10,519 nt of DNA from an uncultured bacterium (GTDB lineage: Bacteria > CALINM01): NCBI GenBank assembly GCA_938045315.1, contig CALINM010000014.1, positions 1 through 10,519 on the forward strand. The letters run 5' to 3'. Below the pieces are notes generated by a model that saw nothing but the letters and a program-made list of their open reading frames with translations, was not told the origin of the DNA and made no database searches. The first letter of the stretch is position 1, and the number at the start of each line of letters is the position of its first letter. Positions 3,954 through 8,873 of this stretch are shown here, piece by piece. Position numbers and translations under genes: made by a program.

Positions 3954-4023
3954 AGGGATATTATTTTATAGTTTTTTGATTTAAAAAGAAAGTTTATTGT
4001 TTCGCTCTGGAGATTATTAATTT
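3954..4023. other. Spacer between tRNA-fMet and the M50 protease gene
   Basis: These 70 A+T-rich bases separate the 3' end of the tRNA from the protease start. I see no hairpin with a T-run that would stop transcription after the tRNA, so read-through from the tRNA promoter into the protease-trpS-scpAB-rluB genes is plausible. On the minus strand a TATAAA (3965-3970), overlapping TAAAAT (3963-3968), lies 9 to 11 bases before the ATG, but no convincing -35 box sits 16 to 18 bases upstream. It is at most a weak extra promoter. Confidence 0.4.
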
Positions 4024-4100
4024 TGGTAGCGGGGAGAGGATTTGAACCTCTGGCCTTCGGGTTATGAGCCCGACGAGCTACCAAGCTGCTCCACCCCGCG
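4024..4100 (-). tRNA. Initiator tRNA-fMet (anticodon CAT)
   Basis: A 77-base tRNA that folds fully: 7-base acceptor arm, GAGC/GCTC D stem, 5-base anticodon stem, 5-base variable loop, 5-base T stem with TTCAAAT loop, and an encoded CCA (4024-4026). The anticodon CAT is at 4064-4066. It is the initiator and not elongator Met: the anticodon stem has three consecutive G-C pairs (TCGGG/CCCGA), which guide the tRNA to the ribosomal P site, and the first acceptor pair is unpaired, as needed for formylation. Here that mismatch is C1-T72, where E. coli has C1-A72. Most of the D and anticodon arms match E. coli fMet closely. A promoter 15 bases upstream (4115-4144) serves it. Confidence 0.97.
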
Positions 4101-4114
4101 TCTATTAGAATCTA

Positions 4115-4144
4115 ATAATACATTATTATCTAAACACATGTCAA
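4115..4144 (-). promoter_or_regulatory. Sigma-70-type promoter of the tRNA-fMet/protease-trpS-scpAB-rluB unit
   Basis: On the minus strand a perfect TTGACA (4139-4144) is followed after 18 bases by TATTAT (4115-4120), one base off the TATAAT consensus. Transcription would begin near 4108, about eight bases before the mature tRNA 5' end at 4100, which is a normal distance. It is back-to-back with the ffh promoter. Confidence 0.75.
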
Positions 4145-4152
4145 GATATTTA

Positions 4153-4181
4153 TTGACATTAAATTATCTTTTCAATAAAAT
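4153..4181 (+). promoter_or_regulatory. Sigma-70-type promoter of the ffh-rpsP-rplS operon
   Basis: A perfect TTGACA (4153-4158), a 17-base spacer and TAAAAT (4176-4181) form a near-consensus vegetative promoter. The start point should be near 4188-4190. The ffh ATG is at 4195, so the leader would be only about five to seven bases, with no room for an SD site. Confidence 0.78.
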
Positions 4182-4194
4182 TTAAAGTTACTTT

Positions 4195-5532
4195 ATGTTC
4201 GACACATTAACAGATAAATTAGGGCAGGTTTTTAAGAAATTAAGAGGACATGGTAGGATAACAGAGTCGAATATAACTGAAGCCTTAAGAGAAGTGCGTA
4301 TAGCCCTTCTCGAAGCAGATGTCCACTTAAAAGTAGTAAAGGAATTTCTCGAGAGAGTAAAGGAGAAAGCATTAGGTCAGGAAGTTTTAACAAGTGTAAC
4401 TCCCGCACAGCAGTTTATAAAAATAGTAGCAGACGAGCTTGTTAATGTTTTGGGTAGTTATACATCAGAACTTGATTTTTCAGGGAAACCGCCAGCAGTA
4501 ATAATGTTAGTAGGATTACAGGGGTCTGGTAAAACAACACAGGCAGCAAAGTTAGCTTTATTCCTGAGAAATAAAAAAAGAAAGCCCGGGTTGGTATGCC
4601 TTGATATTTACAGGCCTGCTGCATATGATCAGTTAAAAAAACTTTCTGCACAAATTTCTGTCCCCTTCTTTGAATACGAAAAACCAAAAGATCCTCTAAA
4701 TATTGCAAAAGAATCTTTGATTTTTGCTGATAAAGTTGGTGTTGATACATTAATTTTTGATACTGCTGGAAGACTTCATATAGATCAGGAATTGATGGAT
4801 GAGTTGAAGGCTTTGAGAAATAATATAAAAATCAACGAGGTTCTTCTTGTGGTTGATTCAATGATTGGGCAGGAAGCCCTGAATGTGGCGGAAAAGTTCA
4901 ACCAGGAAGTGAAGCTAACAGGTCTTATATTAACAAAGCTTGATGGAGATGCAAGAGGTGGAGCTGCCCTCTCTGCAAAATCTGTAACAGGGGTACCAAT
5001 AAAATTTATAGGAGTTGGAGAAAAATTAAATGCACTGGAAGTCTTTCATCCCCACAGGATGGCTTCGAGAATCCTTGGTATGGGTGATATAGTTTCTCTT
5101 GTTGAGAAAGCTCAGGAGGTTGTGGAAAAAGAAAAGGCAGCAGAATGGCAGCAGAAATTAAAAAAAGGCGCATTTACTTTAGAAGATTTTAGAGAACAAT
5201 TTAAGTATGTAAAAAAAATGGGATCCTTTGAAAATATCATGGGCTTTATACCTGGAATGAATAAGTTGAAAAAAGAAATTGATTGGGATAAAATAGAAAA
5301 AGATTTTAAAAGGATGAATGCTATAATAGATTCTATGACGGTTAAAGAGAGGAGAAATCCTGATATAATTAATGGTAGCAGAAAGAGAAGGATAGCTATG
5401 GGAAGTGGTACTACAGTTCAGGAAGTTAATATGCTTTTAAAAAACTTTTTTGAAGCAAAAAGAATTTTTAATCAGATTAAGAAAAAGGGAGAGAAAAATT
5501 TTTTAAGAGGCCTGGGTGGTCTTTTTAAATAA
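4195..5532 (+). CDS. ffh: Signal recognition particle protein Ffh (SRP54)
   Basis: Ffh is the GTPase of the signal recognition particle. With 4.5S RNA it binds signal sequences on nascent chains and, with FtsY, delivers ribosomes to the membrane. It has 445 residues. The N domain (1-95) carries LREVRIALLEADV. The G domain has the P loop GLQGSGKT at 107-114, DTAGR at 189-193 and the TKLDG guanine-specificity motif from 247. The M domain carries the RNA-binding signature RKRRIAMGSGTTVQEVN at 396-412. The N-terminal MFDTLTDKLGQVFKKL fits the family, so the ATG at 4195 is right even though it lacks an SD site and sits 13 bases after the -10 box. The C-terminus (RGLGGLFK) lacks the long Met/Gly-rich tail of many Ffh proteins. 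It leads the operon, 15 bases before rpsP. Confidence 0.97.
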   Translation: MFDTLTDKLGQVFKKLRGHGRITESNITEALREVRIALLEADVHLKVVKEFLERVKEKALGQEVLTSVTPAQQFIKIVADELVNVLGSYTSELDFSGKPPAVIMLVGLQGSGKTTQAAKLALFLRNKKRKPGLVCLDIYRPAAYDQLKKLSAQISVPFFEYEKPKDPLNIAKESLIFADKVGVDTLIFDTAGRLHIDQELMDELKALRNNIKINEVLLVVDSMIGQEALNVAEKFNQEVKLTGLILTKLDGDARGGAALSAKSVTGVPIKFIGVGEKLNALEVFHPHRMASRILGMGDIVSLVEKAQEVVEKEKAAEWQQKLKKGAFTLEDFREQFKYVKKMGSFENIMGFIPGMNKLKKEIDWDKIEKDFKRMNAIIDSMTVKERRNPDIINGSRKRRIAMGSGTTVQEVNMLLKNFFEAKRIFNQIKKKGEKNFLRGLGGLFK

Positions 5533-5547
5533 ATTGAGGAGGAATAA

Positions 5548-5799
5548 ATGGCAGTAAAAATCAGGTTATTTCGTGCGGGGAGTAAAAAGAAACCCTTTTA
5601 TAGGATCGTTGTCAGTGATTCGACTTCACCGAGAGATGGGAGGTTCATAGAAGTAATTGGATATTATGATCCTTCAAAAGGTATTGAAAATGCAAATTTG
5701 AAAAAAGATCTTTACGATGCGTGGGTAACAAAAGGGGCAATTCCAACAGAAACAGTTAGGAACATTGTAAAAAGTTTATCGAAATCTAAAAGTCTTTAA
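5548..5799 (+). CDS. rpsP: 30S ribosomal protein bS16
   Basis: A small-subunit protein of 83 residues that binds 16S rRNA early in 30S assembly. The N-terminus [22 protein letters not shown] and the following [22 protein letters not shown] are the family signature, and the rest of the chain ([20 protein letters not shown]) also fits. A very strong SD site, GAGGAGG at 5536-5542, lies five bases before the ATG. This contrasts with ffh, which has none, and should give high S16 output from the shared message. The neighbours form the usual ffh-rpsP-rimM-trmD-rplS operon. Confidence 0.98.
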
Positions 5800-5835
5800 T
5801 ATAGGTGCGAAAAAAATAACTGATGGGAGGCAGAT

Positions 5836-6072
5836 ATGGGAATGAAAGAACTGATTGAGTACATTGCAAAAGCACTGGTAGATAATCCAGATGCTGTGAA
5901 AGTGGCAGAAGTTGACGGTGAGCGTACAACTGTTATTGAGCTTTCTGTTGCCAGCGAGGATCGTGGTAAAGTTATTGGTAAAGAAGGACGCACAGCTCGT
6001 GCAATGAGAACAATACTTTCGGCTGCATCAGCGAAGGCGCGTAAAAGGGCGGTTTTAGAAATAGTTGAATAA
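5836..6072 (+). CDS. khpA: KH-domain RNA-binding protein KhpA (YlqC family)
   Basis: A 78-residue protein made of a single KH domain, the family found between rpsP and rimM in many bacteria. The RNA-gripping GxxG loop is GKEG at residues 48-51 in [18 protein letters not shown]. In Firmicutes KhpA pairs with KhpB (Jag/EloR), binds many small and messenger RNAs and affects cell elongation. Its role here may differ. GGGAGG at 5825-5830 lies five bases before the first ATG and favours it over the ATG at residue 3. Its TAA overlaps the rimM ATG by one base (TAATG). The product is strongly conserved in sequence type, so the assignment to the family is firm, the cellular role less so. Confidence 0.93.
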
Positions 6073-6593
6073 TGCAAGGGGATGAATATTTACCCCTCGG
6101 CTATATCTTAAGCCCTCACGGAATAAAAGGCCACGTAATTTTAAAAACTTACAGCGGAGAAGGCTATAGCCTTCTCCGAGGTATTTTTTTGTCTTTAAAA
6201 ACATCAAGTAAAGACTGTATCGTTTTGAAGATATTGAGTTGTATACCTTATAAAAATAATTTTCTTCTTAAATTCGAAGGGGTTGACGACAGGAATAGTT
6301 CGGAGAAATTGATAGGTGCAGAGGTATTTATAAAAAGATCAGATTTGCCTGCCACAGAAGATAACGAGTATTACTGGGTTGATTTGATTGGTTGTAATGT
6401 GCTTACTGTGGAAGGGACGTTTATCGGCAGAGTTGAGAATCTTATCGCTACTGGAGCTTCTGATGTTTTGGTAGTAAAAAATAAAAATAAAGAGTTTTTA
6501 TTTCCCTTTTCTGAAAATGTGGTAAAAAATGTTGATATTACATCTAAAAAGATTATTATTGATGTATCAATCTTTAATGAAGAAGATTTATGA
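6072..6593 (+). CDS. rimM: 16S rRNA processing factor RimM
   Basis: RimM binds ribosomal protein uS19 and helps the 30S head mature. It has 173 residues in two beta-barrel domains. The N-terminal RimM domain opens with PLGYILSPHGIKGHV (8-22, with the PHGIKG signature at 15-20), and the C-terminal PRC-barrel domain starts near residue 98 (EYYWVDLIGCNVLTVEGTFIGRV). The start overlaps the khpA stop (TAATG) and has no good SD site, so expression probably depends on ribosomes finishing khpA. The 3' end overlaps trmD as ATGA. A perfect 24-base palindrome followed by seven T's lies inside codons 28-39 and may reduce expression of rimM and downstream genes. Confidence 0.96.
   Translation: MQGDEYLPLGYILSPHGIKGHVILKTYSGEGYSLLRGIFLSLKTSSKDCIVLKILSCIPYKNNFLLKFEGVDDRNSSEKLIGAEVFIKRSDLPATEDNEYYWVDLIGCNVLTVEGTFIGRVENLIATGASDVLVVKNKNKEFLFPFSENVVKNVDITSKKIIIDVSIFNEEDL
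6155..6190 (+). promoter_or_regulatory. Intragenic hairpin with T-run inside rimM (terminator- or attenuator-like)
   Basis: CGGAGAAGGC and GCCTTCTCCG flank a TATA loop, forming a perfect 24-base palindrome (6155-6178). After a five-base gap (AGGTA) come seven T's (6184-6190). The stem is far more G+C-rich than its surroundings. It resembles an intrinsic terminator, though the gap before the T-run would weaken it, and it is within an intact open reading frame (Ser28 to about Phe39). It could act as a partial terminator, an RNA processing site or a brake on translation. Which of these applies cannot be told from sequence. Confidence 0.5.
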
Positions 6594-7282
6594 AGATAGA
6601 TATTCTAACTATATTTCCCGATTACTTTTCAAGCCCTTTAAACCAGAGTCTGGTAGCTAAAGCTATAGATAAGGGTATTATTGATATTAAAATCTGGAAT
6701 ATTAGAGATTTTACCAGAGATAAACATAAGACGGTTGATGATGTGCCTTATGGTGGTGGTTCTGGCATGATTATGAAAATCGAACCGTTGGTTGAATGTC
6801 TTGAAGAAATTGAACATCATAGGGGAAGGGGATTCAAAATATTATTAACCCCGGCTGGTAAGGTTTTTAATTATGAAATGGCAAAAGAGCTAAGCAACTA
6901 TGATCATGTTATTCTAATATGTGGGAGATATGAAGGGGTTGATGCTCGAATTGAGCATTTTATTGATAGAGAAATTTCTATTGGAGATTATATAACTATG
7001 GGTGGTGAGGTAGCAGCTCTTGTAGTTATTGAATCATCTATTAGATTTGTAAAGGGCGTAGTAGGTAAGGAAGAATCCGTTATTTTCGAATCTTTCTGTG
7101 ATGGTTTATTAGAATATCCCCAATATACAAGACCCTATGATTTCAGGGGTTATAAAGTGCCAGATATTTTAACTTCTGGAGATCATAAAAAAATTCTTGA
7201 TTGGAGAAAAGAACAGGCAATTCTGAAGACAAAGAGAGTGAGACCAGAACTTTTAGGAAAGAGAAAATTTTTAAAGGATTAA
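6590..7282 (+). CDS. trmD: tRNA (guanine-N1)-methyltransferase TrmD
   Basis: TrmD methylates N1 of G37 next to the anticodon, using S-adenosylmethionine, and so prevents +1 frameshifting. It is an essential dimeric SPOUT enzyme with a trefoil knot. The protein is 230 residues. Landmarks: DVPYGGGSGMIMK (51-63), LTPAGKVFN (86-94), the cofactor knot segments LICGRYEGVDARI (109-121) and IGDYITMGGEVAALVVIE (131-148), and the catalytic DGLLEYPQYTRP, whose Asp171 corresponds to the catalytic Asp169 of Haemophilus TrmD. The C-terminal helical domain (residues 195-230) is complete. The ATG overlaps the rimM stop by four bases and has only a weak purine-rich SD, so it is probably expressed at RimM-like, not ribosomal-protein-like, levels. 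Confidence 0.98.
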   Translation: MKIDILTIFPDYFSSPLNQSLVAKAIDKGIIDIKIWNIRDFTRDKHKTVDDVPYGGGSGMIMKIEPLVECLEEIEHHRGRGFKILLTPAGKVFNYEMAKELSNYDHVILICGRYEGVDARIEHFIDREISIGDYITMGGEVAALVVIESSIRFVKGVVGKEESVIFESFCDGLLEYPQYTRPYDFRGYKVPDILTSGDHKKILDWRKEQAILKTKRVRPELLGKRKFLKD

Positions 7283-7287
7283 AAAAA

Positions 7288-7848
7288 ATGCCAGAAAATT
7301 TATATATTGCATTATTACATTATCCCGTTTATAACAAAAATAAGCAAATTACAGCAACAGCAATTTTTAATTACGATATTCATGATATTTCAAGAATATC
7401 AAAGACTTATGGAGTAAAGAAGTTTTTTATCGTTCAACCTATTCAAAAACAGCTTGAATTAGGTAAAAAAATTTTATATCATTGGATATTCGACTGGGGT
7501 AGTACTTATAACCCCAGAAGGAAAGAAGCGCTCACAGGGGTAGTATTAAAAGAAAAGTTTGATGATGTAGTTTTAGATATTGAAAGTGATTATGGTAAAA
7601 AGCCTATAATAGTTGTTACAGATGCTAAGGCTTATCCAAACAGCATTGGATATGAAGAGTTAAAAGAAAAAATTTATAGTAAAGATAATCCCTATTTGAT
7701 TGTTTTTGGTACAGGGTGGGGGTTAACGGAAGAGTTTGTAAATTCTGCTGATCTCATATTAAAACCTGTGTATGGTGAGGGCAGCTATAATCATCTTTCG
7801 GTGAGATCAGCGGCGGCTATAATTTTAGATAGACTATGTGGTAGATAA
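7288..7848 (+). CDS. SPOUT-superfamily RNA methyltransferase, TM1570 family
   Basis: A 186-residue protein of the SAM-dependent RNA methyltransferase family whose crystal-structure representative is Thermotoga TM1570 and whose genes typically lie between trmD and rplS. The start MPENLYIALLHYPVYNKN is the family N-terminus (NLYIALLHYPVYNK), and other strong motifs are FFIVQPIQKQ (46-55), WGSTYNPRRKEAL (70-82), a knot-type loop VFGTGWGL (139-146) and YNHLSVRSAAAIILDRL (167-183), which parallels the C-terminal cofactor-binding helix of other SPOUT enzymes. The substrate is unknown. The neighbours suggest tRNA or rRNA. The frame is open further upstream inside trmD, but the ATG at 7288 fits the family and has AAAGGA (7273-7278) nine bases before it, five bases after the trmD stop. 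Confidence 0.9.
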   Translation: MPENLYIALLHYPVYNKNKQITATAIFNYDIHDISRISKTYGVKKFFIVQPIQKQLELGKKILYHWIFDWGSTYNPRRKEALTGVVLKEKFDDVVLDIESDYGKKPIIVVTDAKAYPNSIGYEELKEKIYSKDNPYLIVFGTGWGLTEEFVNSADLILKPVYGEGSYNHLSVRSAAAIILDRLCGR

Positions 7849-7865
7849 TAGGGAGGTGCTAATTT

Positions 7866-8213
7866 ATGAATAGAAAAGTATTAGAGATCGAAAAAAGCTT
7901 TATAGCAGGTAAGGAAATGCCAGAATTAAGGCCTGGTTATACTGTTCGTGTGCATACAAAGGTTAAAGAGGGAGACAAAGAGCGTATTCAGGTTTTTGAA
8001 GGAGTAATAATAGCGCTCAAACATGATGGCATCAGAACTTCTTTTACTGTTAGGAAAGTATCTTATGGAGTTGGGGTGGAGAAGGTTTTTCCTCTTTACT
8101 CGCCAGTCATTGACAAGATAGAGGTTGTAAGCAAGGGTAAGGTTCGGAGGGCAAAACTTTATTATCTAAGAAACTTGAGAGGTAAAGCAGCCCGTATAAG
8201 AGAAATACGTTAA
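7866..8213 (+). CDS. rplS: 50S ribosomal protein bL19
   Basis: A large-subunit protein of 115 residues that sits at the interface with the 30S subunit. Diagnostic segments are [31 protein letters not shown] (residues 19-49), [30 protein letters not shown] (58-87) and the basic tail [21 protein letters not shown]. The SD site GGGAGGTG (7851-7858) is close to perfect and lies seven bases before the ATG. The strong SD, also seen for rpsP, suggests that the two ribosomal-protein genes are translated much better than rimM and trmD on the same message. A strong hairpin follows nine bases after the stop codon. Confidence 0.98.
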
Positions 8214-8221
8214 TAGGATTG

Positions 8222-8256
8222 TGTTGGCAAAGTACATATGCTTTGCCAACAATTTT
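8222..8256 (+). terminator. Hairpin between rplS and rnhB (candidate intrinsic terminator or processing site)
   Basis: TGTTGGCAAAG (8222-8232) and CTTTGCCAACA (8241-8251) are perfect complements of 11 bases around an eight-base loop that contains CATATG. A single A and then TTTT follow (8253-8256), then C and T. The T-run is short, so termination would be partial, which suits a position between a highly expressed ribosomal-protein gene and two low-abundance nucleases with no promoter of their own that I can see. Confidence 0.55.
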
Positions 8257-8258
8257 CT

Positions 8259-8873
8259 ATGAAATTTCTTTTAGATTATCTATCTCAGGACAATTATGAA
8301 TTGATATGTGGAATTGATGAAGTGGGGAGAGGTCCTATAGCTGGTCCTGTGGTGGCTTCTGCTGTAGTTTTCAAAAAAGATTATATAAATCCACTCTTTA
8401 TAGATTCAAAAAAGCTAAACCCCAAAAAAATAGAAGAACTTGCAGAAATTATAAAGGTAGAAGCAGTATCCTTTGCTATAGGGCTCAGGGATGCAGAATA
8501 TATTGATAAACATGATATTTTAACTGCTACTTTTAAAGCCATGGAGGATGCATTTAATAAATTAAAGATTAAACCATCTCTGATCTTCATTGATGGGCAT
8601 CTTAAAAATCCATATATAAAAAATGTACAGCAAATAGCTTTAGTGAAAGGAGAAGAGAAGTCTGTTGCAATTGCAGCGGCATCAATAATAGCAAAAGATT
8701 TTAGAGATAAATTAATGATGGAGTATGCAAAAGAGTTCCCTCAATATGCTTTTGAAAAGCATAAGGGATATGGAACTAAATTACACTTAGAAATGCTAAA
8801 AAAATATGGGCCATCGCCTATACACAGAAAAAGTTTTTTAAAGTCCCTATCAAAACCGGGTTCTTTATTGTGA
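8259..8873 (+). CDS. rnhB: Ribonuclease HII
   Basis: RNase HII cuts RNA:DNA hybrids and nicks 5' of single ribonucleotides left in DNA. From the ATG at 8259 the protein is 204 residues. The frame is also open from an ATG at 8238, but that codon lies in the loop of the preceding hairpin. Neither start has an SD site, so the choice is uncertain. The first catalytic pair is Asp20-Glu21 in GIDEVGRGPIAGP (18-30), and Asp112 is in FIDGH. The fourth metal ligand, usually Asp in KGD, is Glu132 in VKGEEKSVAIAAASIIAKDFRD. C-terminal KHKGYGTKLHLEMLKKYGPSPIHRKSF is typical. It overlaps the yraN start by four bases (GTGA). Confidence 0.93.
   Translation: MKFLLDYLSQDNYELICGIDEVGRGPIAGPVVASAVVFKKDYINPLFIDSKKLNPKKIEELAEIIKVEAVSFAIGLRDAEYIDKHDILTATFKAMEDAFNKLKIKPSLIFIDGHLKNPYIKNVQQIALVKGEEKSVAIAAASIIAKDFRDKLMMEYAKEFPQYAFEKHKGYGTKLHLEMLKKYGPSPIHRKSFLKSLSKPGSLL

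Follow-up and report, generated by a model that had tools for sequence, protein, structure and literature searches.

We consider it moderately probable that a hairpin in the first part of the rimM gene is an intragenic intrinsic terminator which acts as a partial attenuator, probably sensitive to translation, and lowers the expression of rimM-trmD relative to rpsP-khpA. This reading builds on the anatomy of the hairpin, its non-chance occurrence, its compensated conservation in a congener, its recurrence in other bacterial lineages and the gene order of the operon. The stretch of DNA analysed, here called the window, is a whole contig of 10,519 bp from an AT-rich genome of 1.86 Mb in 244 contigs. 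Three genomes of the phylum were compared, two of which belong to the genus (the window genome and G001). The third phylum genome yielded no match to rimM, trmD or khpA and is hence uninformative, and a contig scan for RimM returned distant RimM relatives only.

The genes follow the order ffh-rpsP-khpA-rimM-trmD-(RNA methyltransferase, PF09936)-rplS-rnhB-yraN (Table 1), in which ffh, rnhB and yraN are presumed identities, the names having been assigned from their sequence. The start codon of rimM overlaps the stop codon of khpA (TAATG, 6070-6074). Upstream of ffh a probable operon promoter was found. A search for a conserved promoter before khpA found none, and the candidates obtained for an rplS promoter were at chance level, none of them convincing. 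Of 20 gaps between convergent gene ends in this genome, 4 contain hairpin-plus-T signals where 0.4 would be expected, an enrichment from which the organism appears to use intrinsic termination. Rho is also present in the genome, so that polarity on untranslated rimM could reinforce a mechanism based on termination or on translation.

Additional inverted repeats were observed in the window. A 13-bp hairpin between rplS and rnhB (8222-8251) is kept in G001 with a different loop and lacks a good T-run there; it may serve in processing or stabilisation instead of termination. A 13-nt perfect inverted repeat without a T-run (245-271) is located in the GKGTTF motif of a truncated histidine kinase gene.

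Table 1 Coordinates of genes and sequence features of the rimM region in the window
Feature	Position	Strand	Basis and conservation
Probable operon promoter TTGACA-17-TAAAAT, upstream of ffh	4153-4181	+	Consensus match; conserved in G001
rpsP (ribosomal protein S16)	5548-5799	+	ORF, Pfam
Conserved segment (khpA leader, khpA, rimM codons 1-40), ending at the T-run	5800-6192	+	92% identical to G001 (alignment)
khpA (KH domain)	5836-6072	+	100% amino acid and 79% synonymous-codon identity to G001
Predicted start-codon fold, stems 6061-6068/6097-6104 and 6078-6081/6093-6096	6061-6104	+	z -2.6 (window) and -3.5 (G001); modest support
rimM, intact ORF, 173 aa	6072-6593	+	Pfam RimM N-terminal and PRC_RimM
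A-tract 5' of the hairpin, able to pair with a portion of the U-tract	6143-6147	+	RNA folding
Extended hairpin, 13 pairs: core, AG/AG internal loop and UAC/GUA (6150-6152 with 6181-6183)	6150-6183	+	Predicted fold; compensatory pair 6151-6182
Perfect 24-nt palindrome, 10-bp stem and UAUA loop, rimM codons 28-36	6155-6178	+	All 10 pairs kept in G001
T7 tract, directly 3' of the extended stem (0 nt)	6184-6190	+	T7 kept in G001
trmD, proposed downstream target of attenuation	6590-7282	+	ORF, Pfam

The palindrome (CGGAGAAGGCTATAGCCTTCTCCG) consists of the arms CGGAGAAGGC-TATA-GCCTTCTCCG, which form a 10-bp core stem including 7 G-C pairs, and is followed by the five nucleotides AGGTA and then by T7. 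Since the predicted stem continues via the AG/AG loop to the three outer pairs, U7 starts at the foot of the hairpin. Two marks of an intrinsic terminator, a stable GC-rich hairpin and a U-tract directly after the stem, are thus present, and RNA release would be expected at about 6186-6192. The 58-nt stretch around the hairpin has a predicted folding energy of -25.1 kcal/mol (z -6.3), and 0 of 200 shuffles were as stable. A preliminary description of this DNA had reported a perfect palindrome with a T-run inside an intact rimM, which our analysis confirmed. The location in early rimM also held, with the exact span corrected from codons 28-39 to codons 28-40 (83-118 nt inside rimM), and the T-run given there as following the ten-base stem is indeed present, more precisely 5 nt past the core and immediately at the end of the extended stem. 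Its assumption that the hairpin falls in a RimM loop of variable length was not supported: no sign of an insertion was found, and the Pfam N-domain aligned over 2-84 of 84 positions, gapless in comparison to G001 in this region.

When RimM was recoded synonymously with the genome's own codon usage, 0 of 20,000 recodings contained an element with a stem of at least 10 bp, a GC count of at least 7 and at least six T's. The hairpin is also the strongest sense-strand terminator-like element inside ORFs in a sample of about 257 kb of ORF sequence from its own genome, a scan which gave five matches at loose thresholds, one of them probably due to a misplaced ORF start. An origin by chance or as a by-product of codon use, for which one might point to the comparison of only two congeners and to the fact that the window was read for striking features, is hardly credible: the recoding result, the compensatory change and the enrichment in early rimM across bacteria described below strongly disfavour it. 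A dispersed palindromic repeat was rejected because the palindrome is single copy in the genome at up to 3 mismatches. A known RNA family was likewise rejected, as a search of positions 4000-8400 with Rfam covariance models yielded only a tRNA and one sub-threshold match and left the hairpin unmatched.

G001 is the sole congener with the gene; its RimM is 72% identical and its operon is syntenic. The corresponding hairpin (ACTTTCAGCGGAGAAGGTACAAGCCTTCTCCGAGGAATTTTTTTG) differs by six changes, which are confined to the loop, a single G-U pair and a single compensated pair. Three of the 26 stem positions differ, and all 13 pairs and T7 are kept. The changes 6151 A>T and 6182 T>A affect pairing partners and are compensatory (Tyr>Phe and a synonymous Gly change), while 6164 C>T leads to the G-U pair. 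Chimeras carrying one of the two compensating changes were predicted to be 2-3 kcal/mol weaker. When three substitutions were placed at random, all pairs survived in 1-2% of cases, and the probability that every pair is kept is about 0.001 if the substitution rates of the remainder of rimM are assumed, or 0.12 with the lower rate of early rimM. The comparison argues strongly, though with two sequences not conclusively, that the hairpin is conserved as RNA beyond codon needs; shuffle controls on 2 or 5 sequences had little power. Compensating stem changes beyond codon needs, envisaged in the preliminary description, were thus found in the one available close relative, and the idea put forward there survived the question of whether close relatives lose the stem.

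The same comparison bears on a role of the palindrome at the DNA level, for example as a cruciform or as a protein site, possibly for bS16. Binding of S16 to cruciforms has been reported (PMC10931766), and the palindrome lies within the rpsP operon. However, G001 has kept the stem and the T-run and lost the centre of the palindrome (TATA to ACAA), with one pair turned into G-T. Such a pattern agrees with an RNA and leaves a weaker dyad or cruciform; we regard a site of this kind as extremely unlikely.

Conservation extends beyond the hairpin. The segment 5800-6192 ranks at the top of 2,806 windows of 390 nt in 89 kb aligned with G001 (mean 0.764, sd 0.044; best elsewhere 0.86), and the identity drops to about 65% right after the T-run. 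Synonymous codons are identical to those of G001 in 59/75 cases in khpA and in 30/37 cases in early rimM; the proportions are lower in the remainder of rimM (44/84; early versus rest, P = 0.002) and in seven other genes (609/1130). In khpA and its leader (5800-6072), the DNA identity to G001 is 93-100%, far above the genome sample, and the first 62 nt of khpA are unchanged. Either RNA constraint or recombination may account for this. Among 17 pairs from other lineages, synonymous conservation of khpA was not unusual in most, by which khpA conservation as a general rule is rejected; it is specific to the genus of the window.

That the high identity is due to a tract which recombined recently between the two lineages, in which case the conservation would say little on function, is very improbable in our view. 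Similarity is higher in khpA, in its leader and in early rimM than in the rest, and the spacing of khpA substitutions is not clearly non-uniform (P 0.02-0.10), as such a tract would have it. Yet the changes within the hairpin are confined to positions that leave the pairing intact, the tract stops at the T-run, and recombination leaves the recoding result and the conserved hairpin of family f127 (see below) unexplained. Some of the khpA conservation could result from a recent tract, but the compensatory changes could not.

The extent of the segment, running from the khpA leader to the T-run, would also fit a hairpin that, instead of attenuating dosage, serves as a 3'-end stabiliser or processing site or provides the 3' end for a small RNA of about 390 nt (5800-6192), either ORF-internal or derived from khpA. 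From E. coli, RNAs are known that lie inside ORFs and have 3' ends of their own (PMC7815308). We consider this explanation improbable: neither an Rfam match nor a conserved promoter before khpA was found, and khpA is without such conservation in most other lineages, whereas rimM hairpins recur.

In E. coli, the mRNA depth over rimM and trmD is flat and the ribosome density about ten-fold lower (PMC4378010), and a structure in the rimM mRNA has been verified by mutation and DMS-seq (PMC5318159). A regulatory element in rimM of the E. coli trmD operon goes back to Wikstrom and Bjork, as cited in PMC4378010 and PMC5318159. The window resembles this system in having a conserved RNA structure in early rimM, a similarity of position that the preliminary description had pointed out correctly, and less RimM and TrmD than S16 would be expected here as well. 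Unlike the window element with its terminator anatomy, the E. coli element acts on translation, and early rimM of E. coli is without a strong simple hairpin or T-run.

Control of translation as in E. coli is a possible but rather unlikely explanation for the window. A fold at the rimM start codon and the hairpin would then lower the loading or passage of ribosomes on rimM-trmD, transcription would continue unterminated, and the T-run would be incidental, as it encodes Ile-Phe-Leu codons. Apart from the E. coli precedent, this would agree with the many early-rimM hairpins elsewhere that lack a T-run and with the predicted start-codon fold (Table 1), in which two predicted stems, both unchanged in G001, flank a 9-nt bulge containing the ATG (6072-6074). 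However, T7 immediately follows the extended stem and is unchanged in G001, conservation stops exactly after it, hairpin and T-run are combined in six families, and with a distance of about 80 nt past the start the hairpin is too far away for a direct block of initiation. Based on T7 following directly after the extended stem, reduced transcription of rimM-trmD is likelier than translational repression alone. Of the earlier suggestion that the hairpin does the same job as the E. coli structure by other means, the constraint and the purpose hold up; E. coli-style control of translation alone is less likely than termination, since the anatomy is that of an intrinsic terminator, whose function we infer.

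According to the attenuator model, RNA polymerase coming from ffh-rpsP-khpA would transcribe about 120 nt of rimM. Without a ribosome following closely on rimM, the 13-pair hairpin would form, U7 would be reached and the RNA would be released near 6190. This would yield an rpsP-khpA transcript whose 3' end is stable and lower the amount of rimM-trmD RNA. Such absence of ribosomes is likely because the start of rimM seems to be folded and relies on coupling to the stop codon of khpA, with which it overlaps. A ribosome translating rimM would open the hairpin and let the polymerase pass. We infer that termination takes place in vivo, that it depends on translation and that it affects the dose of RimM and TrmD. 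Some observations speak against the attenuator. The product of rplS should match S16 in amount. A terminator inside rimM would cut rplS too, and no convincing rplS promoter was found; in addition, a hairpin under active translation would be hidden from the polymerase, and the mRNA over the same operon is flat in E. coli (PMC4378010).

For B. subtilis, a terminator T1 after rpsP-ylqC(khpA) has been described, which gives rise to a short rpsP-ylqC and a longer rimM-trmD transcript, together with a further attenuator T2 inside the trmD ORF and a known rplS promoter (PMC10100781). Like T1, the signal in the window comes directly after rpsP-khpA, 83 nt past the overlap of khpA stop and rimM start. 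Unlike T1, which is located downstream of ylqC and before ylqD-rimM, it lies inside rimM and is not intergenic; rplS of the window is also preceded by chance-level promoter-like sites only, in contrast to B. subtilis. In clostridial ABC-importer operons, internal partial intrinsic terminators set stoichiometry (PMC9045158). They share with the window element the long GC stem, internal unpaired bases, a U-tract able to pair and the location inside an operon, but they are intergenic, whereas the window element would have to coexist with ribosomes and coding constraint inside an ORF. RNA 3' ends inside coding sequences, as predicted here, are known from E. coli, some arising by intrinsic termination; the main text of this study does not report 3' ends in rpsP or rimM and describes no conservation of a rimM element (PMC7815308). 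A review from 2024 states that information on how the rpsP-rimM-trmD-rplS operon is regulated does not exist. Already known are internal terminators that set stoichiometry, the B. subtilis terminator at the same operon position and the structured rimM mRNA of E. coli. No report on terminator-like elements inside rimM or on their recurrence was found in a literature search that left most subscription papers outside.

Recurrence was analysed in 157 distinct rimM genes from across bacteria, with early rimM defined as -10 to +135 nt from the HGxxG motif and hairpins counted at a synonymous recoding p of at most 0.01. At a score of at least 24, early rimM contained 11 hairpins, a few of them from mutual relatives and with thresholds fixed after a first look, compared to 1.6 expected from 318 kb of other ORFs (about 7-fold, Poisson P 9e-7) and 2.2 expected from position-matched ORF starts (Poisson P 2e-5, Fisher P 7e-4). 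When a T-run was required, six families remained in 29 kb of early rimM (the window genus, L029, L084, L144, L165, which is the sole genome of its family, and L196), whereas late rimM (51 kb) and trmD (112 kb) contained 2 terminator-like hairpins each. In other lineages, at least half of the early-rimM hairpins lack a T-run, indicating that termination is not their common denominator. In every carrier rpsP is located upstream of rimM, usually with khpA in between.

In family f127 (two genera, RimM 42-77% identical), a 14-bp perfect stem with a T-rich tail is present in 5/5 genomes. Codons for identical residues are 75-91% identical in this hairpin versus 33-56% elsewhere. In one pair, a double change from C-G to A-T is compensatory. 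L084 and L168, which belong to different families with RimM 49% identical, have a 15-pair hairpin in common. Three of its pairs have changed and pairing is retained in each, in one case by a double A-T to T-A change. The cases of f127 and L084/L168 show selection independently. In five other loci or carriers (L078, L115, L116, L147 and L166), a terminator-like hairpin lies between khpA and the rimM start, the place of B. subtilis T1.

Individual loci showed further features. The two congeners L115 (1581-1608) and L116 (1892-1919) have, next to the khpA-rimM hairpin, a second one inside rimM, whose stem is constant and whose loop changes. In L165 (1240-1264) and L029 (1378-1407), with RimMs 29% identical, a terminator-like hairpin falls on the same residues (GELRLLPFF and GAVRLLPFF), T7-T8 being the Phe-Phe codons. 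In the unrelated genome G346, a near-perfect hairpin of roughly 20 bp inside rimM (L066:1625-1677) ends in TTTTT.

Unequal protein output of the rpsP-rimM-trmD-rplS operon has been attributed to translation in E. coli (PMC4378010) and to terminators and promoters in B. subtilis (PMC10100781). We tentatively propose, with somewhat less than even confidence, that several unrelated families independently placed an intrinsic attenuator early in the rimM ORF, at or after HGxxG, by which RimM and TrmD are dosed separately from S16, and that translation of rimM would decide on further transcription of the operon. If true, compensated hairpins inside rimM of unrelated lineages would represent a further solution to the dosage problem, situated within coding sequence. 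They predict defined RNA 3' ends, which can be checked in cultured organisms, and regulation could be lost unnoticed when such genes are codon-optimised or recoded. The rimM hairpins would then constitute a recurrent, translation-sensitive intragenic switch encoded in the coding sequence itself.
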